From: an uncultured Gammaproteobacteria bacterium
GTDB lineage: Bacteria > Pseudomonadota > Gammaproteobacteria > Arenicellales > JAANXG01
Length of the DNA: 34,040 nt
NCBI GenBank assembly: GCA_947259875.1
Contig: CAMYNX010000028.1
Span: forward strand, 1-34,040
Direction of reading: 5' to 3'
In this document: piece by piece, positions 2,839-34,014 of the stretch
How positions within the stretch are numbered: the stretch's first letter is position 1
How the letters are laid out: the number at the start of each line of letters is the position of its first letter
Notes under the pieces: generated by a model
What the model was told of the DNA's origin: nothing
The model's database searches: none
Seen by the model: the letters and a program-made list of their open reading frames with translations, nothing else
Made by a program: the position numbers and the translations under genes

Positions 2839-5179
2839 AACGCGCGATCCGGAATCCAAGATCTTGCCTTGGTTTGTCACTGTAATCCCGAAAACTCAAT
2901 CGCAGTTCGCTGATGGTCGAGTGTTTCCAACCGGCACCGCGCACTACGTGGTGGCGCCCGGACGCTGGTCCGATCGGGTCTCGTACCACCCGCGCACCGG
3001 CCACGTGGACGTCGTAGAAGTCGTGGCACCATTCTGCCACGTTCCCACCGACGTCGTGGACACCCAACGAGTTCGGTAGGAAGCTGCCGACCGGGGCGGT
3101 GACCGCAAATTGGTCGTTATAGGTCGAGAGTGTATTGGGGAGCAAGCCGGTGGCTGCGCGGTCGGCGTAATTACCTGCCGAGCCGGTCGGCGGATAGTTG
3201 TTTCCCCAGTCATATTTGGTCGGACTCGGACGCTCGGCATGGCGCGCCGCGTACTCCCATTCCGCCTCGGTAGGCAGACGATAACCGTTGGTCGGCGGCC
3301 GCACAGCGACCAGCTTTTCGCCCTGTTTCGAGTATGCCGGGATCAACCCGTCCTTCTCGCTCAACCAATTCAGATAGGCGGCAGCCTCGTCCCAGCGTAT
3401 GTCGACCACCGGTTGTTGGTCGTCGTCGAGACTTCGGCCATAGGCGGAACCCGAATTGTGCTCGGCCTTGAAACGGCGGAATTGTCCATTGGTAACCTCT
3501 TTGACGCCGAGATAGAACGCCCGGGTCAGCTCCACCTGGCGCAATTGCTCGTTTGCCCGCCGGCCCTGTTCGCGACGCGATGCACCCATGGTGAACTGCC
3601 CGGGCTTGATCAACCGCAACACATGACCCTCGCCGGTGGTGACCGTCTTAGCGATTGCGGACCGTTGCGGGCTCGCGGTAGTTCTGTTTAGCGTCACCGT
3701 CACCTCTTTGCTCACTCCTGCCCGGGGCGTGACGGTCACCCGGTAAGGTTCGTAACCCGGCTTTTTGAATTCCAGCTGGTGCGGTTCGGTGGTCAACTGC
3801 AAGCGCTGGGCGCCCTCGCCACGATCCTTGCCGTCGACATACAGTTGTGCATCGGGGGGATCGCTGACAATGAATAGCGCGCCGTACTCGGCGGGTAGCG
3901 TGACGTCCAGAGACTCGGTAGCCGCGGCTTTCAAACTCACCGTCTTGGTGACCGTCTTACGGCCGGCCCTGGACAACACGATATGATGTTCTTGTTTCGG
4001 AGTGAGCGTGAGTTCGAGCGGTGTCACCCCGAAATATTGACCGTCCATTGTTACCGAAGCGCCAACCGGCTCGCTGTTAATGGCAAGCAGTCCGTGTGAC
4101 AGTTTGAGCACGAACGGCTCGAGTGTCATCGCCTCACCAGCAACCACGGTAAGCTGTGAGCGAAACGGGTCGTGCTCGTCCAACCGTAGTTCGACTGCGT
4201 GCTCCCCCGAGAGCAGGTCCATGGTTGCCGGCGTTGTACCAACCTCTTCGTTGTCAATCCATAGTGAGGCGCCGCTTGGACTCGATGCGAACGACACCGG
4301 AGCCCAATCGGGTTGCAATGTGACGTCGACCTCCTGCGAGCGGCCCATGCCTTCAACGTTCAGATCGAGTTCAATTGGTTGGTAACGAACCGCGGTTATC
4401 TGAATCTGATGCGCACCAGCACGCAGCTCGAGATCCCGAATCGGTGTCACGCCGACCTGCCGACCGTCGACACTTACGGTCGCACCGGCGACCGGACTGC
4501 TGATCAGCGAGATGCGACCGGGAAGCTTTTGCATGTCGAACGCAAACTCCTGATGCGGTCCGCGGCGGATGTCGGCCCCACGGCTGAGCGGCTGATAGCC
4601 AGGCTTGCTGGCGACGATCTCATAGCTGCCGGGATAGACCAGATACCGTTCCTGCAACTTCAATACCGGCAAGGTTCCACGCAATTCGAAGTATTCCGGT
4701 TCGGGGGTGATCGTCACCGACACCGGGGTAGCGGTAAACACAAACACCGCGACCAATAACAGAACCAGGAACATTGCCAACACACCGAGCCGCAGCATGC
4801 GGCGGCTACCGCGTTTCGCCGCCGGGGCAGTGGCAAAGGTTGCCGGTTCACCGGCGCTTTCCTGTAGTTGCAGCGTTTGTCCGGTGAACACACACGCGAG
4901 CGTCACCGCACCGATTCTTACATGGTCGCCATCCCGCAACGGCGCAGGATCTGTAAGACGGCGCTCATTGAGCAATACCGTGATTGTGGGCACACCGGGC
5001 ACCAACCACGGGTGGCCACTACGGCACTCTACGTATGCGTATTCATTTTGGCTGCGGTCCCCGGATAAGGGAATATCCGCGGCTTCACCGCCAATGCTGA
5101 GGCGCTCGCCGTCGGCACATCGCCGGTCTTTTGCATTGGTTCCAGTAATTGTAAACGCGTTCAAATCTGCTCCTCGCAT
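2828..5179 (-). CDS. FHA-like / TM / tandem PEGA repeats / SUMF1 (formylglycine-generating-enzyme-like) protein
   Basis: ORF 783 aa; N-term FHA-like ('LSIGGEAADIPLSG...LRDGDHVRIGAVTL'), TM 'LGVLAMFLVLLLVAVFVF', repeated 'SSPSGASLWIDNEEVGTTP'-type PEGA units, C-term 'YRLPTEAEWEYAAR...LGVHDVGGNVAEWCHD...LGFRIAR'. Confidence 0.88.
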   Translation of the reverse strand: MRGADLNAFTITGTNAKDRRCADGERLSIGGEAADIPLSGDRSQNEYAYVECRSGHPWLVPGVPTITVLLNERRLTDPAPLRDGDHVRIGAVTLACVFTGQTLQLQESAGEPATFATAPAAKRGSRRMLRLGVLAMFLVLLLVAVFVFTATPVSVTITPEPEYFELRGTLPVLKLQERYLVYPGSYEIVASKPGYQPLSRGADIRRGPHQEFAFDMQKLPGRISLISSPVAGATVSVDGRQVGVTPIRDLELRAGAHQIQITAVRYQPIELDLNVEGMGRSQEVDVTLQPDWAPVSFASSPSGASLWIDNEEVGTTPATMDLLSGEHAVELRLDEHDPFRSQLTVVAGEAMTLEPFVLKLSHGLLAINSEPVGASVTMDGQYFGVTPLELTLTPKQEHHIVLSRAGRKTVTKTVSLKAAATESLDVTLPAEYGALFIVSDPPDAQLYVDGKDRGEGAQRLQLTTEPHQLEFKKPGYEPYRVTVTPRAGVSKEVTVTLNRTTASPQRSAIAKTVTTGEGHVLRLIKPGQFTMGASRREQGRRANEQLRQVELTRAFYLGVKEVTNGQFRRFKAEHNSGSAYGRSLDDDQQPVVDIRWDEAAAYLNWLSEKDGLIPAYSKQGEKLVAVRPPTNGYRLPTEAEWEYAARHAERPSPTKYDWGNNYPPTGSAGNYADRAATGLLPNTLSTYNDQFAVTAPVGSFLPNSLGVHDVGGNVAEWCHDFYDVHVAGARVVRDPIGPASGRHHVVRGAGWKHSTISELRLSFRDYSDKPRQDLGFRIARYAE

Positions 5180-6591
5180 CTAACATCTATGGTTTGCAAG
5201 GCCGGCCCGGCCGTGACCTTCCATTCCACGCGCACATCGCGGTATCCAACCCGCGTCCCGCGCACACGGTAAGTGCCAGGCAACAACATCATCCGCGATT
5301 CCGAGAATCTGCCGAAACGGCCGACCCGATCGATGGACACCTCGGTTTGGTTGTCGGAGCGTATCAACACCGCCACCGGGGTGCTGGCGAGCCTCACCAG
5401 ATCCTCGAGGGTATCGAGTTTTTGCCGCAGTCGCGGCCCTTGGTCCGACAGCGACACCGCACTCTGTAACAGACGGTCAGCGTTGGCCCGCGGTTCGGGC
5501 GATTGCAGGCGATCGGGGGCGTCAAGATAGGTATCCAACTGCGCATGCAATTCGGCAAGCCGCTCGGCGTGCCGAACACCCTGCAACGCAAATTGCGCTT
5601 GCGGATCGATCGCCAGCACCGCCTCGTACTCGGTAATTACGTCCCGCCAGTGCTCTTCGTGTTCGCTTCGCTGAGCGCGTGTACGATGATGTGCAATCTT
5701 TTGGGCCTGTATCGCCCGCGTCAGCCGCCGTTGCGTATCCACCACCTCCGCCGACTCCGGGTTCAGCATGCGTGCACGCTCCAGTGCGCGGCGCGCCTCG
5801 GGCAGTGCCCCACTTTCGATTGCGGTCAATGCATCAGACATGGCTTCACGGAATTCAATCTGCTTGATTGTCGCCGTTACCCGCTCCACACCCTCACGCG
5901 CTTCGCGCGAGTCGGGATCCAGGCGCCGCGCGGCGCGGTACTGTTCTTCGGCCAACGTCCATTTACGGTCCTGCTCGTGCTCGCGTCCAGACGCCAATAT
6001 AACTGCCAGGCGATCGAGGGTTTTTGCTCGTGCCGCGCCCCGTTGTGCTTGTGCATGCTGTGGGTCGATGGCGAGCGCGATAGTGAAATGTTTCTGCGCC
6101 GATTTGGCGTCGTAGCTCTCAACTGCTTGCGCACCCTGTTCCAGGGCCGTGGTCAGCCGGTCGGCCTTGGACGCTTCCAGTGCCATCAACATGGTCGAGA
6201 CATCGCGATAAGTGATGGCCGCCGCCGCAAAGTTCTGATTGGTAAACTCGGCATCGCCCTCGGCGAGGCGGGTGAGCACCGTTTCATAGTCCGCGCCGCC
6301 CCAAACCCGAACCTGCTGCGCCTCAAGCACAGTCTGATGTTCAAGCAGCTGCTGCAATGCCCGTTCTGCCTCGCGTTTTTCACGCGCGAGTCGTACCTGT
6401 TCGGCTTTTGGCGCCATCGGTTTGGCCGCCTCGGGAGCCGGCCGGTCGTTAGACTCTTCGACGACCGCGCGTTGGTCTACGAAATCCGGAAGCACCCACA
6501 CCACAATCACCACGGCAGTCAATAAGATCATGAGCGCCGCCAGCAGCGTAATCCGGACCCAAACGGGTGCGTGAATCCGAGCGCGGGTCAC
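5161..6591 (-). CDS. TPR-repeat membrane protein with C-terminal PEGA-like domain
   Basis: ORF 5161..6630; probable GTG start at 6591 (VTRARIHAPVWVRITLLAALMILLTAVVIVVWVL); TPR-like helices; C-term 'LLPGTYRVRGTRVGYRDVRV'. Overlaps the next gene by 19 bp. Confidence 0.8.
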   Translation of the reverse strand: MTRARIHAPVWVRITLLAALMILLTAVVIVVWVLPDFVDQRAVVEESNDRPAPEAAKPMAPKAEQVRLAREKREAERALQQLLEHQTVLEAQQVRVWGGADYETVLTRLAEGDAEFTNQNFAAAAITYRDVSTMLMALEASKADRLTTALEQGAQAVESYDAKSAQKHFTIALAIDPQHAQAQRGAARAKTLDRLAVILASGREHEQDRKWTLAEEQYRAARRLDPDSREAREGVERVTATIKQIEFREAMSDALTAIESGALPEARRALERARMLNPESAEVVDTQRRLTRAIQAQKIAHHRTRAQRSEHEEHWRDVITEYEAVLAIDPQAQFALQGVRHAERLAELHAQLDTYLDAPDRLQSPEPRANADRLLQSAVSLSDQGPRLRQKLDTLEDLVRLASTPVAVLIRSDNQTEVSIDRVGRFGRFSESRMMLLPGTYRVRGTRVGYRDVRVEWKVTAGPALQTIDVRCEEQI

Positions 6592-6636
6592 GCCGTTTCC
6601 TCTACCGCACCTGGAGCCCGCATATTGCACCGAGGC

Positions 6637-6741
6637 GCCCCGCCCTTATTCATGGTACACAACTGGAGACACCCACAGAGCTTCATCCCGGTAATGACAA
6701 TATTGAACTCCTTAGGTTTCTTGGCAAGAATAAGGGCTGGG
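6637..6741. repeat. MITE-like element, family R1, copy 1 (105 bp with imperfect TIRs)
   Basis: GCCCCGCCCTTATTCATGG...CTTGGCAAGAATAAGGGCTGGGC imperfect inverted termini; diverged relative at 18028-18132 of the same length. Confidence 0.6.
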
Positions 6742-6813
6742 CTATCCCGACCCTGACTGGTCCTCGCACGCCTGCGCTTGGCCTTCACTCGATCCAACGC
6801 CCGCTATGGGTCT

Positions 6814-7030
6814 TATTCTGTTGAAAAACTCCAAATTTTTCGAAACGACAAAGTCATTTTTCCTACAGGCAATTTTAAATTCTGATACATGGGGGGGATC
6901 TTATAATTAACGATTTCTTCCTACCGAGTCACCGGCGAGCTTGTGCATAAAATACTACGCCAGGTTTAGGACGTATTAGTATTTACCAGAAAATTCGCCT
7001 TCCCAATTATTCGAGTTTTTCAACAGAATC
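6814..7030. mobile_element. Non-autonomous IS/MITE-like element with 17-bp terminal inverted repeats
   Basis: ATTCTGTTGAAAAACTC (6815-6831) and GAGTTTTTCAACAGAAT (7013-7029) are perfect inverted repeats; GGTCT flanks both sides (6809-6813, 7031-7035); AT-rich interior without an ORF. Confidence 0.75.
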
Positions 7031-7122
7031 GGTCTCGCTCCAGGCACCGCCCTCAGCTGCACGAATCCTGCGTCAGCATCCGGGATCCTGGTGAGAAATG
7101 CGGGCTCGATCACCACGTGGGG

Positions 7123-8355
7123 TCATTTCACCGGCAATGATTGGGGCTGATCGTCGTCCGCAATGTCGGGCGTCGGCGCGCCGGTTTCGGTTGCATACAT
7201 CTCACTGAGCAGAAGGCGCCACTGGTGAAACTGCTGTTCGGCCGAGCCGGTCAATTCCACCGTCTGTCCCTCGACGTTGAGTACCAATGGCGCCACCTCG
7301 GCGTTGAACGACTCGCCAAGCTCGCGAATCGCATCCTCATGGATCGCCTTCTGTGCACTGATGTCCATTCCGCGCTTGACGTTATACGCACCGCCGAGGA
7401 CCATCACATCGCGTACCGACTCGGTGCCAGAGTCTCCACCCAAGACCTCAACTGCGATGGCGCCAACGATCATCGCGGCGCCCAGCAAATAGCGATTGGC
7501 TGCCTTTTGTCTTACCTCGCGCAACGCCGCAGCCTCGTCGCTACGGGCCTTGCGCCAGTCGAAATAGGGGTCAGCCATCTCGGCATTGAACTTGTCGTAG
7601 TATCCGTTTACAACATCGATCAGCATATGTTCGCGCTCGCGGACCTTCAACACTCGATCGAGCATCGGATCGTCTTGGGCAGGCAGTCTTATAATGCGAT
7701 ATTGGCCGTCGTCGGTCGAGGTAACAAAGCCGTCGAACGCCTCCGGCGCCAGCGATTTACCAAATCTAAGTTTGGCGATACGTTGGATCTCCAAGATCCG
7801 GTCCGCCGACAATTTCGCTTTGTGGCGGTACAGGTCATTGGCGATGCGATTGTAGACATCCTGAAACACTTCGTTTTCGTTGGCGTCGAGGTAGGCTTGG
7901 GCATCAACCCGTTTCTCATACACAGAACTGAACCACCGATTTCCCGAGGAATCGGATACCTTTACCTCTAATTCCAAGACCTCACCGTCAGATTCTAAGA
8001 TCTTCCCTTCCACCAAGACATTGACGGCGTGGGTTTGCGCCGGCACCACGCGCACGGCGCCCCAGTGACTCGTTCTCTGCAATGTATCGCGCAGAACCAG
8101 CGGAATGAAACGCGCCTCGGCGGACCGGATCTCGGCAGTCAGGCCCTTCTTCTCACGGTCCTTTTCGCTGATCTCACCGGGATCGAAGACGCGAATGCCA
8201 ACGTCAAGGAGTTGTTGCTCCTGAAGCTCGGCCTGCGCGTTGATCACCGGCGTGTCTTCGACCTTTTCGGCAACGGTCATGGTCTGGCACCCCGCCACCA
8301 GCATGGCCGCGATCGCCAAAATGATCACCAAACCACTCGATCTCACCGCTGTCAT
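7123..8355 (-). CDS. Lipoprotein of unknown function
   Basis: ORF 410 aa; lipobox 'IAAMLVAGCQT'; ATGA overlap with the upstream gene at 8352-8355. Confidence 0.8.
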   Translation of the reverse strand: MTAVRSSGLVIILAIAAMLVAGCQTMTVAEKVEDTPVINAQAELQEQQLLDVGIRVFDPGEISEKDREKKGLTAEIRSAEARFIPLVLRDTLQRTSHWGAVRVVPAQTHAVNVLVEGKILESDGEVLELEVKVSDSSGNRWFSSVYEKRVDAQAYLDANENEVFQDVYNRIANDLYRHKAKLSADRILEIQRIAKLRFGKSLAPEAFDGFVTSTDDGQYRIIRLPAQDDPMLDRVLKVREREHMLIDVVNGYYDKFNAEMADPYFDWRKARSDEAAALREVRQKAANRYLLGAAMIVGAIAVEVLGGDSGTESVRDVMVLGGAYNVKRGMDISAQKAIHEDAIRELGESFNAEVAPLVLNVEGQTVELTGSAEQQFHQWRLLLSEMYATETGAPTPDIADDDQPQSLPVK

Positions 8356-28396: not shown

Positions 28397-29590
28397 CTAA
28401 AGTTCGCCGCTACCGGGATGTCTGACCCCGGTCCCGCGCAGCATGGCAGCGGTCGCCAAATCCCCGCTCGTCACCGCCGCGGCAAGTGCCGTCGTCCCAT
28501 CGCGCGCGCGGTAATCGACATCCGCCCCCGCTTTCAACAGCAGGCCTACGGCATCGCTAAGACCGCGTTCGGCGGCAAGTATCAGGGCCGTTTCCAAATT
28601 GCCGTCCGCCGCCTGGCCGTTGGCATCGGCGCCGTGGCCAAGCAGCGCGCGCAGGATTTCCGGGTGGTTTCCGCGTACCGCGAGCATGAGCGGTGTTTCG
28701 CCAAGGCGCGCCTTAGCGTTCGGGTCGGCGCCGGCGGCGATCAGGCGCTCGACCACCGCCGCTTGACCAAAAAACACCGCCGCGCCAAGCGGCGTATTAC
28801 CGTCGCGGGCGCGCTTATCGATCATGGCGTTTGCCTCCAGGAGCTGCTCTACGATCTCGACCCGGCCGGTCATCGCCGCCCGATGCAACGCGCTGCGGCC
28901 ATCATCGGACGTCGCGTTGGCATCGGCGTTATTCACTAACAGCGTCGCGGTAATATGCGCGTGCCCACGCACCGATGCCCCCATCAACGCGGTATAGCCA
29001 TCCGGCGCGGGTTGGTTGACGTCGGCGCCCCTAGCGATCAGCTCTATCACCGCCTCGATCCCGCTTGCCTGCCGTGCCGCCAAAATTAGCGGCGTACGGC
29101 CGTCTTTGGTGGAGACAATATTCGGGTTCGCGCCCCGCTCAAGCAGCCGGATCAGACTGCGTATATTTCCGCGCTGTACGGCCACGTGCAGTGGCGTGTG
29201 CCCGTAGCGCTTCTCGTAGGTGTTGGGATTGGCGCCGTGGTTAACCAGAAGATCCACGAGCCCGGCTCGATCGGCATCGACGGCATAAAACAAAGCGGTA
29301 AGCCCGCCCGCGGTGCGGCCATTCACATCCGCGCCATGAGCCAGCAGCCGCTCGATCACCCGAACATGACCGGCGCGGGTCGCAAGGATCAATGCCGTGT
29401 ATTTCTCGTCCGAGGTGTCACGAGTTTCGATATCGGCGCCCTCGGCGAGGGCGTATTCGACAAGGTCAGGGCGATCATTGGAGGCGGCCCATAGCAGGGC
29501 TTGATTCGCAACCGGGGGCGGTCCTTGCGACGCCCCAAAGGTATGCAGCGGCATCAACACAATTATAAAGGTTAGGATAGATGCGCGCAT
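28397..29590 (-). CDS. Secreted ankyrin-repeat protein
   Basis: Start MRASILTFIIVLMPLHTFGASQ (signal peptide); many tandem ankyrin units such as 'DGNTPLGAAVFFGQAAVVERLIAAGADPNAKARLGETPLMLAVRGNHPEILRALLGHGAD'. Confidence 0.92.
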   Translation of the reverse strand: MRASILTFIIVLMPLHTFGASQGPPPVANQALLWAASNDRPDLVEYALAEGADIETRDTSDEKYTALILATRAGHVRVIERLLAHGADVNGRTAGGLTALFYAVDADRAGLVDLLVNHGANPNTYEKRYGHTPLHVAVQRGNIRSLIRLLERGANPNIVSTKDGRTPLILAARQASGIEAVIELIARGADVNQPAPDGYTALMGASVRGHAHITATLLVNNADANATSDDGRSALHRAAMTGRVEIVEQLLEANAMIDKRARDGNTPLGAAVFFGQAAVVERLIAAGADPNAKARLGETPLMLAVRGNHPEILRALLGHGADANGQAADGNLETALILAAERGLSDAVGLLLKAGADVDYRARDGTTALAAAVTSGDLATAAMLRGTGVRHPGSGEL

Positions 29591-30070
29591 GCCGAGTAAT
29601 AGGCCTCTGGTGGTTATACAAATCAATGACAACGAGATGCTAACACAGGGTGTGGGCGGCGGAAGACATGGCATCTTGGAATTCCTGACACATCGCAACA
29701 TTGCTTACACATTTGTGATACTTCGTACTCAACGCATAACGACTCGGTAGTGTGCTGCTTTTTTCATCGTCTGTTCGAACCGGCCGCACCCTCGATCACG
29801 ATGTCTTCCTACATTCGTCACCGCACTCTTTATTCTATTTTCACTATGCTTGATGGCAACACGGGAACGGAAAAACCAAATTGGAACCATCGCGAACCAA
29901 GCAAACGAAAGACGTCGGCGCCGCAGTCATAGCGCCCAAAGAAGTCTTTTAAATGCAACGGAAACGCGAGCGAGCACTTCCGAATCTGGATCGTCAATGT
30001 TCTGCTGATATTGCGCACTCTGGGGATGTGCTCAGCCTGGGCTAAGGTGCGAATCAAGCATTACCTATTC

Positions 30071-30163: not shown

Positions 30164-30529
30164 CTACGATACAACTGACATCGATGCTCCATCACCAACA
30201 GGAACCTCCCCAAGTTCGTTTGGATCATATCCGTCCAGGCAACCCACATTAACACCGTACTCGTTCGGATCACTACGGCGCTGATGATGCGTATAGATAC
30301 CACACGTCCGGCAAAAATAGTGTTTCGCGATTTTCGTATTCCACTGATATAGCACCAAGTGTTCGATCCCCTTCGTAACTCGTAATCTTTCCACAGGGAC
30401 ACCGGCCATGATTGCTCCTTTTCGACGACACAACGAACAATTGCAACGTCGGAGATTCTCGAGGCCATTTTCAAGATCGACCTCAAACTCAACTGCACCA
30501 CAATGACAAGTACCCTTAACGGTTTCCAC
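30164..30529 (-). CDS. GFA/CENP-V family Zn-binding protein
   Basis: ORF 121 aa; 'GTCHCGAVEFEV', 'RRCNCSLCRRKGAIMAG', 'YFCRTCGIYTHHQRR'. Confidence 0.9.
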   Translation of the reverse strand: METVKGTCHCGAVEFEVDLENGLENLRRCNCSLCRRKGAIMAGVPVERLRVTKGIEHLVLYQWNTKIAKHYFCRTCGIYTHHQRRSDPNEYGVNVGCLDGYDPNELGEVPVGDGASMSVVS

Positions 30530-30909: not shown

Positions 30910-31011
30910 GGAGAACGTTCTAGCTCAGCGGCAAAGGTAAGCTGACGTGGCTTTGGCGACAGCAAAAGGCACGACAGGTTGACTTTGTCCGACTGGAACG
31001 CATTGTTATGC
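30910..31011 (-). other. Integron attC site, downstream of the 144-aa membrane protein gene
   Basis: Minus: GCATAAC-AATGCGTTCCAGTCGGACAAAGT...TTTGCCGCTGAGCTAGAAC-GTTCTCC; shares CGGACAAAGT and TTTGCCGCTGA with the attC at 31506. Confidence 0.75.
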
Positions 31012-31029: not shown

Positions 31030-31464
31030 CTAGCTGACCCAACTTTTCTTCCTGGCCTGTATCGAATACCAGATCAAAAACACTGCTACCACCAGCGGCA
31101 TCAGAATCATCATAAAGATTTCGAAGGCACTGAAGTCGATTTTCGAACCGGCCACGCCAAGTGTATGGATCATTGTCACAATCACCCCAAGTACTGACGC
31201 GATGAACAAATAGTACGCAGCTGACTTCCTGAGCATAAGCAGCAGGCAGCCAAAAGCGCCGCCGATTACGGCTATCGCGAAACCGGCGGTGGCCCATGCG
31301 GGTCGGCCTTCGATGATTGCGCGGTGCGACTCGGGATATGAAGCAACCGCGTTTGGATTCATCTGCACGAAGAAATTTATGACACCCATAACATTCCAAA
31401 TCAGCGCGACAACGCCGATTGCCCAGAAACTCCAGTGAACACCACCTACGGTCTCATCGTTCAT
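31030..31464 (-). CDS. Four-TM hypothetical membrane protein
   Basis: ORF 144 aa; several hydrophobic helices ('WSFWAIGVVALIWNVMGVINFFV', 'FMMILMPLVVAVFLIWYSI'). Confidence 0.8.
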   Translation of the reverse strand: MNDETVGGVHWSFWAIGVVALIWNVMGVINFFVQMNPNAVASYPESHRAIIEGRPAWATAGFAIAVIGGAFGCLLLMLRKSAAYYLFIASVLGVIVTMIHTLGVAGSKIDFSAFEIFMMILMPLVVAVFLIWYSIQARKKSWVS

Positions 31465-31505: not shown

Positions 31506-31577
31506 ACATAACCTCCGCATCAGCGGCAAAATGCGAGCGCGACGAGTACTTTGTCCGGCCGCATGCGCGTGTTAAAT
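31506..31577 (-). other. Integron attC site, downstream of the VOC gene (72 bp)
   Basis: Minus: ATTTAAC-ACGCGCATGCGGCCGGACAAAGT...TTTTGCCGCTGATGCGGAG-GTTATGT; RYYYAAC/GTTRRRY-like ends with imperfect inverted arms. Confidence 0.78.
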
Positions 31578-32000
31578 GCCTTTACTAGACTTGCCGGATG
31601 ATACTTGTGACCTAAGCTCAACTGTGTTGCCTTCTGGATCTTTGATATATATTGACTTTCCAATTCCCTGTGCGCCATATCGAGCATCAAAATCCCCTGC
31701 GTTAATACCATGTGACAATAATTTTTTCTTGATATCATTTTCTGAAATAGGTTTCAGCTGAAGACAAAAATGATCCAGATTATTTTCAGTTTTGGTCGGG
31801 GCGCCACCGCCCATCTTTCCTAGACGGCTATCAACTTCAACTAGATCAATCAAAGCGTTTCCGGCGCGTAATTGAGTTAGCCCCATTTCAATTGAAGTTT
31901 CTCTTTCAACTGTACAGCCCAAAACATCGCAATAAAAATCAAGCATGTCTTTTAGCTTCGTTGTTCGTAAAACTATATGATCGATTCCCGCTATTTCCAT
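31572..32000 (-). CDS. VOC (glyoxalase/bleomycin resistance) family protein
   Basis: ORF 142 aa; 'IDHIVLRTTKLKDMLDFYCDVLGCTVERE', 'YIKDPEGNTVELRS'; visibly AT-rich. Confidence 0.92.
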   Translation of the reverse strand: MEIAGIDHIVLRTTKLKDMLDFYCDVLGCTVERETSIEMGLTQLRAGNALIDLVEVDSRLGKMGGGAPTKTENNLDHFCLQLKPISENDIKKKLLSHGINAGDFDARYGAQGIGKSIYIKDPEGNTVELRSQVSSGKSSKGI

Positions 32001-32087
32001 TACTTAATCTGCTCCCCCAAAGTGCAATTTCATACTGGTGGAATTTAATCGGGATAGGGGGATGCCTCACGGCATCCCTCCTCCCAC

Positions 32088-32121
32088 ACCACCGGGCATA
32101 CGGGTCACGTACCACGGCGGT
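32088..32121 (-). ncRNA. Group II intron domain V
   Basis: Minus ACCGCCGTGGTACGTGACCCGTATGCCCGGTGGT: 34 nt, ACCGCCG pairs with CGGTGGT, GTACG with CGTAT. Confidence 0.88.
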
Positions 32122-32143
32122 TCGGTCGATTGAGTCAGATTGC

Positions 32144-33481
32144 TCATTGATACACACTCGGCAGACCTAGCCCAGCAAAGTATTTATTCGGTAAAGCATA
32201 ATACAATGCCGGACTTTTACTTAGTCGCCAAGGCCCATGTGCAGACTTGCAGGTATTCCAGGCAAGCTGCCGCTCAACACCTCGTCTGCGTAGCTCACGA
32301 TAACCGCGTCGCCCCCACTGTTTCCAAAGGTAACTCCGCAGTCGCCGTCGTATCCATTTATCGATATCTCGCAATGGCGAGACCACTTCCGCCAGCTGAA
32401 AATACGCTTTCCAACCGTGGAGGTACTTTCTCAGTTCCGCGATAATCGTATGGATGGTTCGACCTCGTGTTCTAACGCTGATGCTTCGTACTTTCTGTTT
32501 GAAGGCCGTTAACGCCTTGCCGCTCACCTTGAGTCGTTGGTCTTTCGGACTCATAGTAAAGCCAAGAAAGCATCGTCGCCAAGGCCGATCAACGGCGCTT
32601 TTGGCATCGTTGATCGTTAGTTTGAGTGTCGCGTGCAGGAACCGTTTCAGGTTGCCCAGCACACGATCACCCGCGCGTTTGCTTCTGACATAGATGTTGC
32701 AATCATCCGCGTAGCGCACAAAACAATGACCTCGCGCTTCCAGTGTTTTATCCAGTTCATCCAGTAGCAGGTTAGCCAATAGCGGCGATAATGGCCCGCC
32801 TTGAGGTGTCCCTGCCCGGTTCGCGTTCCGTTTGCCGTTGATGCTGATATCCGATTTAAGTATACGGTTAATCAGTATCAAAACATGCCGGTCTTCGATC
32901 CGTCGCTTGATGCGTTGCAGGAGGATGTCATGGTTTACACTGTCGAAGAACTTCTCTAAATCCATATCCACCGTCCAGCAGTAGCCTTCACGCACATAGT
33001 GTTGTGCTTGGCGCACCGCTTGATGGGCGGATCGTTTCGGACGAAATCCAAAACTGAATTCGGAGAAGCTGTCATCCCATTCACGTTGCAAGAGCTGTAA
33101 CAACGCTTGTTGGATGAAACGATCAATGACGGCAGGAACACCCAAGTGTCTTTTGCCACCATTCGGTTTGGGTATGCTGATACGCCGCACCGCTTGGGGA
33201 CGATAAGTGCCCGTGCGTAATTGATCTTTGAGGGTGAGCCAATGGTGTTTGAGGTAAACCGGGAGTTGTTCGACGGTCATGCCATCGACCCCCGGTGCAC
33301 CTTTATTGCGTATCACTTGCTTCAGAGCACGTCTTAGATTGTCCCGTTCTAATACCTGTTCCATGAGCGATATAACCGGAGTGTCTTCTTTGTTGACGCC
33401 AACCCCTGGTTCATCGGGTCTGATGCAATCCAAGGGTTCCGTTAACATTGACTGCTCCTCTCGTTTATTCTCAATTTCCAT
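32144..33481 (-). CDS. ltrA: Group II intron reverse transcriptase/maturase
   Basis: ORF 445 aa; 'KGAPGVDGMTV', 'RPQAVRRISIPKPNGGKRHLGVP', 'GTPQGGPLSPLLANLLLDELD', 'FVRYADDCNIYVRSKRAG', C-term 'GPWRLSKSPAL'. Confidence 0.95.
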   Translation of the reverse strand: MEIENKREEQSMLTEPLDCIRPDEPGVGVNKEDTPVISLMEQVLERDNLRRALKQVIRNKGAPGVDGMTVEQLPVYLKHHWLTLKDQLRTGTYRPQAVRRISIPKPNGGKRHLGVPAVIDRFIQQALLQLLQREWDDSFSEFSFGFRPKRSAHQAVRQAQHYVREGYCWTVDMDLEKFFDSVNHDILLQRIKRRIEDRHVLILINRILKSDISINGKRNANRAGTPQGGPLSPLLANLLLDELDKTLEARGHCFVRYADDCNIYVRSKRAGDRVLGNLKRFLHATLKLTINDAKSAVDRPWRRCFLGFTMSPKDQRLKVSGKALTAFKQKVRSISVRTRGRTIHTIIAELRKYLHGWKAYFQLAEVVSPLRDIDKWIRRRLRSYLWKQWGRRGYRELRRRGVERQLAWNTCKSAHGPWRLSKSPALYYALPNKYFAGLGLPSVYQ

Positions 33482-33941
33482 CGAGAGACCGTTCGGACCT
33501 TCATGATAAAACGTTGCAGATTGGCTTATCTGTTTCTCTGTCTTTCAACATTGAGTGCCTAAATAGCCTCACCTGTTGTTATCACTAGTACGTCCTATGC
33601 TGACTTCTGCCCGCGGATCACATGAAATTGCTTCCATGTCAGTCCATCCCTGAACCACAGACAGATCTCCCGGGGTAAGACACAAAACTGTCGTTGCGTA
33701 AACGCCGAATTTATAAAACGTATCCCAATTGCAGATGGAAGACTTCGTGGTCACGTGCCCACTCGTCTCAGATACGTCACACCTCATATCCGGTTCTTGT
33801 TCATCGCCCCGCAACTTTGGATTGGGCTTCCTTCAGCTATCACCTCGCGGCGATAACCTTGCCCTTCTCCTAGCCTTCGGCTCTGCGATGACCTGGCAAG
33901 AGGACTTCCACCTCTCTAGTTTTGCGCCATGCCCGGCACAC

Positions 33942-34014
33942 ACGTCTGAATTGAGCGGCGCGCGTCTCTTGCGCGTCCGGCCCCGAAGGGGCGAACTCGA
34001 ATGATTTGTTATAA
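33942..34014 (-). other. 5' portion of an attC site interrupted by the group II intron
   Basis: Minus: TTATAAC-AAATC-ATTCGAG...CGCCCCTTCGGGGCCGG...GCCGCTCAATTCAGACGT| ; completed by TAAAT at 32047-32043. Confidence 0.85.

Follow-up and report, generated by a model that had tools for sequence, protein, structure and literature searches.

We found that the attC site near the end of the window (the whole 34,040-nucleotide stretch of contig DNA analysed here, from an uncultured gammaproteobacterium) is interrupted by a complete group IIC intron lying in the same sense as the integron cassettes, and we consider it probable, at roughly four chances in five, that this intron belongs to a small mobile group IIC lineage specialised for the sense strand of attC, with the strand set mainly by EBS1. 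The window intron is a group IIC intron that works like the IIC-attC introns (S.ma.I2 and Kl.pn.I3 types), sharing with them the IIC ribozyme, a class C RT without an endonuclease domain, insertion into attC beside an R box, a T at +1 and an EBS1 in the same loop. It departs from two of their defining features, namely the strand and box entered and the RT clade: IIC-attC introns insert at R'' (TTGT^T) in the bottom strand and run antisense to the cassettes, with EBS1 ACAA and an RT clade of their own, whereas the window intron lies on the sense strand, in R' at ACGT^T, with EBS1 ACGU.

The intron occupies 1894 nt (32048-33941; this and the other intron, attC and cassette features given below for the window are on the minus strand unless stated otherwise). 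The 5' exon contains TTATAACAAATCATTCGAG and, at the junction, ...CTCAATTCAGACGT, its final base being 33942; the intron starts with GTGTGCCGGGCATGG at 33941 and ends with CCCCCTATCCCGAT at 32048, and the 3' exon, TAAATTCCACC, runs from 32047 onward. These ends (GTGTG...CCCGAT), already placed at 33941/32048 by the original prediction, are supported at the sequence level by alignment with relatives and by the group IIC rule 5'-GUGYG...AY-3', which they fit. The ribozyme core matches Rfam RF02001 (group-II-D1D4-3; 33680-33854, minus strand, 127 bits, E 4.5e-26), and core and ends together place the element in group IIC. An intact RT/maturase ORF of 445 aa (32144-33481) retains YADD and has only RVT_1 and GIIM as Pfam domains, with no endonuclease domain, and the RT alignment and tree place it among the class C RTs of IIC introns. 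Domain VI and the 3' end (...CCCCCTATCCCGAT) lie at 32048-32084, next to a segment at 32085-32123 (GAACCGCCGTGG...CCCGGTGGTGTG) that we take to be domain V from its resemblance to that of IIC introns. The EBS1 loop, ACGTGA, is at 33751-33756, a position set from 68 IIC introns, and its leading ACGU pairs at four of four positions with the IBS1 ACGT of the 5' exon (33942-33945), whose closing GT is also the GT of R'. The first base of the 3' exon (32047) is the presumed IBS3, a T in this intron as in all clade members whose 3' exon was read, and the predicted spliced junction, 33942/32047, would read CAGACGT-TAAATTCC.

The left part of the interrupted attC (33942-34014) consists of R'' TTATAAC (34014-34008), L'' ATTCGAG (34002-33996), a stem, L' CTCAATT (33955-33949) and the GT of R' (33943-33942); the remainder of R', TAAAT (32047-32043), begins the next cassette, and the rejoined exons run from R'' to GTTAAAT, a perfect R' box, as expected of an insertion within attC. 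The claim that a group II intron splits the attC core GT^TAAAT in cassette orientation was therefore borne out. That orientation had been read from an extra C in the left arm: L'' carries one C more than the complement of L' (ATTGAG), an asymmetry also shown by the left arm of aadA1 (TTCAAGC versus TTAAGC), and this makes the minus strand the cassette sense. The minus-strand direction of the downstream genes supports this independently, as does the attC at 31011-30910, whose asymmetry is shared by attCs located after intI on contig C164 of this genome. From the extra C, the gene direction and the match to the intI array we conclude that the intron lies in the cassette sense; the same three observations rule out an artefact of a reversed attC. 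On the plus strand the opposite box, TTTGT^TATAA, is uninterrupted, again as predicted. The sense strand 5' of the junction can fold into a hairpin ending just before the junction, and the bottom strand likewise, so that the hairpin and short EBS1-IBS1 pairing of group IIC introns are both present, the hairpin being weak (-14.1 kcal/mol for the window attC, modest against shuffled sequences at z -1.6).

Beyond the intron lie a cassette gene of the glyoxalase/VOC family (31572-32000, Pfam PF00903) with its candidate attC (ATTTAAC...GTTATGT, 31506-31577), a 144-aa cassette ORF from the ORF list that has no Pfam match (31030-31464), the attC at 30910-31011, whose homology to the IntI-anchored attCs of C164 fixes the cassette sense, and a GFA-family cassette gene (30164-30529, Pfam PF04828). 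An ankyrin-repeat protein gene (28397-29701) stands immediately past the last recognisable cassette. Contig C164 (L119, G000:C164) carries an integron integrase gene and at least four cassettes at 4819-7979, in an array that reaches the contig end and of which the window array may be a later section.

The closest RTs, 54-64% identical to that of the window, come from an Acidiferrobacterales MAG (L006), a Deltaproteobacteria MAG (L007), a Bacillota MAG (L008), an Enterobacterales MAG with several intron copies (Faavne_M6_B3; L009, L010), a Proteus plasmid with a class 1 integron (L086), an intron that recurs in class 1 integrons on IncC plasmids and others (L087) and, more distantly, an Omnitrophota MAG (L033). 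In all those read, the 5' junction is [A/G]CGT^ and the 3' exon starts with T, and the joined exons form an R' box or a near match. The survey of R' against R'' that the original prediction had called for thus gave a uniform answer, the closest introns all being at RCGT^T in R' on the sense strand. Flanking cassette genes run in the direction of the intron where this is clear (L007-L010, L033, L086 and L087); for L006 a second attC and the extra C indicate the orientation, for L007, where the extra base is ambiguous, gene direction was used instead, and the R'' box of L009 and L010 is atypical. One copy in L009 (from 3005) is reduced to its first ~70 bases, and in L008 (1629-3540) an inserted element with a reverse-strand ORF of 481 aa separates domain V of the intron from domain VI.

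Relatives with identical ends interrupt the aadA1 and aadA2 attCs, where joining their exons gives GCGTTAGAT; on the complementary strand, L104 shows the R' half of the aadA1 attC without an insertion. A single plasmid intron, identical at 1837-1838 of 1838 bases, occurs in three exon contexts (aadA1/3'CS and aadA2/3'CS, both on pOXA436, and aadA2/dfrA12 in E. coli AF200), always at GCGT^TAG in the sense orientation. Recent mobility is the simplest reading of these sequences; homologous recombination inside the intron could possibly account for some of the contexts. On the E. coli AF200 plasmid (L181, NZ_OZ547451.1) the order is aadA2-[intron]-dfrA12-gene-qacEdelta1, which IntI cannot easily produce at an R' box split by an intron. 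Among 399 genomes of the phylum, the sense-strand junction pattern matched the window alone, and the matches examined for the bottom-strand pattern were coding or unrelated DNA; a scan of IMG/VR with the clade alignment found no clade member, and a motif search there gave terminator-type insertions only.

EBS1 was taken as the loop in G-GGC-NNNNNN-NNNN-GAAG, its first four bases being scored for pairing with the 5' exon's final four. Across 68 introns the pairing score was 230.5, as against 119.2 +/- 6.7 with shuffled exons and a maximum of 142.5 in 2000 shuffles. The GACGTATC segment just upstream was also tried as EBS1 and dropped, since it does not covary with the exon and the downstream loop does. 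All clade members in which EBS1 was read have ACGTGA with IBS1 RCGT and a 3' exon T, whereas the five classical IIC-attC introns of the comparison set, drawn from class 1 integrons (L101, L103, L104, L106 and L109; L110, beside enterotoxin genes, was excluded), are antisense, with EBS1 ACAAGA and site TTGT^TA. We thus attribute the choice of strand mainly to EBS1, because the two arms of attC offer different tetramers: among 13 uninvaded attCs, 12 have NCGT^T as the sense-strand site at R', and the site at R'' on the bottom strand is either TTGT^T (10 attCs) or TGGT^T (3). ACGU favours the sense site and ACAA the other strand in 13/13 of these, a small and partly related set of clean intergenic sites filtered by hand from a simple pattern scan that gives false positives in coding sequence, and the preference is in some cases just half a point. 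At the eight sites invaded by the clade, ACGU prefers the sense strand in all eight, and ACAA prefers the other strand in six and ties in two.

The RTs of the window lineage form one clade with support 98/87, small at nine rows, and those of the classical bottom-strand introns a separate one (100/100), which provides the phylogenetic classification that had been proposed as a check. Constraining both attC types to a single clade costs 45 lnL (p-AU 0.018). Since the clades are separate and a joint one is disfavoured, two origins of attC targeting are favoured by the tree, which is to be read with caution in view of its long branches. The window clade is placed beside the terminator-targeting IIC introns (B.h.I1 and O.i.I1 type), which share with it the logic of a hairpin and a short IBS1; their target, in contrast, is a terminator with a T-rich IBS1 rather than attC.

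The original prediction had also allowed for relaxed strand choice, under which the window would hold an ordinary IIC-attC intron inserted by chance into the unusual strand. The near-palindromic arms of attC, which let both strands fold hairpins, and the use of the same kind of site by classical introns lend this some plausibility, but the window RT lies in a different clade, the clade members found are without exception in R' on the sense strand, at RCGT^T, and the EBS1 difference is the one expected, so that we regard it as very improbable. Alternatively, one could envision the strand being set by replication direction, through exposure of the lagging-strand template to endonuclease-minus introns, or by the RT, EBS1 being no more than a passive correlate. 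Such introns do use primers from replication forks (PMC4424553), and RT and EBS1 differ together between the two intron types; yet the sense strand is likewise chosen on replicons unrelated to one another (IncC and IncHI2A plasmids, MAG contigs), and the same attCs have been entered on opposite strands by introns with different EBS1 sequences, that of aadA1 in sense in L087 and antisense in L104, and that of aadA2 in sense in L179 and L181 and antisense in L103. We therefore hold this to be quite unlikely as the main cause, though RT recognition and replication direction are possible contributors, and the clade RTs may also read the target site.

Somewhat less remote, but still unlikely, is that a hairpin of any kind followed by RCGT^T can serve the lineage as a target, attC being simply the commonest such site. 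Most IIC relatives do target terminator-like hairpins, each with its own IBS1; against this, at each site found the junction lies in a core resembling R', accompanied in most cases by an R''. We accordingly prefer a lineage specialised for the attC sense strand, and the suggestion of a different insertion mode survives in that form, as what is presumably the same type of reaction directed at the other attC strand and at R' instead of R''.

In such a lineage the intron RNP would recognise the attC hairpin in single-stranded DNA together with the four-base IBS1 beside the R' box; EBS1 ACGU would pair with RCGU and, with the T at +1 as presumed IBS3, direct reverse splicing into R' as RCGT^TRRRY. 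In classical IIC-attC introns ACAA in the same loop would instead pair with UUGU beside R'' on the other strand. Because it lies in the cassette sense, the window intron would be expected to be removed from the integron transcript by splicing, as an antisense IIC-attC intron could not be, and its insertion at R' would take away the GTT core used by IntI, locking the junction until intron loss. Put more broadly, the chances seem evenly balanced that attC targeting arose at least twice in IIC introns and that the second lineage, its EBS1 differing at two bases (ACGU in place of ACAA), thereby recognises the complementary strand, can be spliced out in sense and so occupy arrays at little cost to expression, and at the same time destroys the R' crossover point and locks the junction. 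A base-pairing rule of this kind would account for both types, would predict the strand and box of an IIC intron in an integron, and would predict opposite effects on cassette expression and mobility. Class 1 resistance integrons of IncC and IncHI2A plasmids already carry members of the lineage.

The literature we found, as far as the passages available go, treats integron IIC introns as bottom-strand and antisense and leaves same-orientation cases as oddities. An Enterobacter cloacae group IIC intron with an unusual target and the same orientation was reported by Rodriguez-Martinez et al. (2012, as cited in PMC7923331), and a same-orientation intron in Shewanella algae KC-Na-R1 was ascribed to a different invasion process in a 2022 paper (PMC9229058), the relevant passage of which gives no lineage, target rule or mechanism. 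The latter is probably the intron of NZ_CP033574, the strain identity being inferred; that intron is 99.9% identical to the one in pR148. In the full text searched, which takes in a minority of subscription papers, we found no paper linking strand to EBS1 or describing the lineage. The lineage and the EBS1 explanation thus appear to be new, same-orientation cases having been known twice before. The original prediction had been made conditional on close homologues not all lying in R' by a documented mechanism; they do all lie in R', and isolated cases in the cassette orientation have been published, but the accessible literature yielded no mechanism.

The genome that harbours the window intron contains other IIC elements. 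A second IIC intron, on contig C316 (L003, L005), sits at a terminator-like hairpin and has EBS1 GACGTA, and the 3' relic of another is found at C306:21-97.
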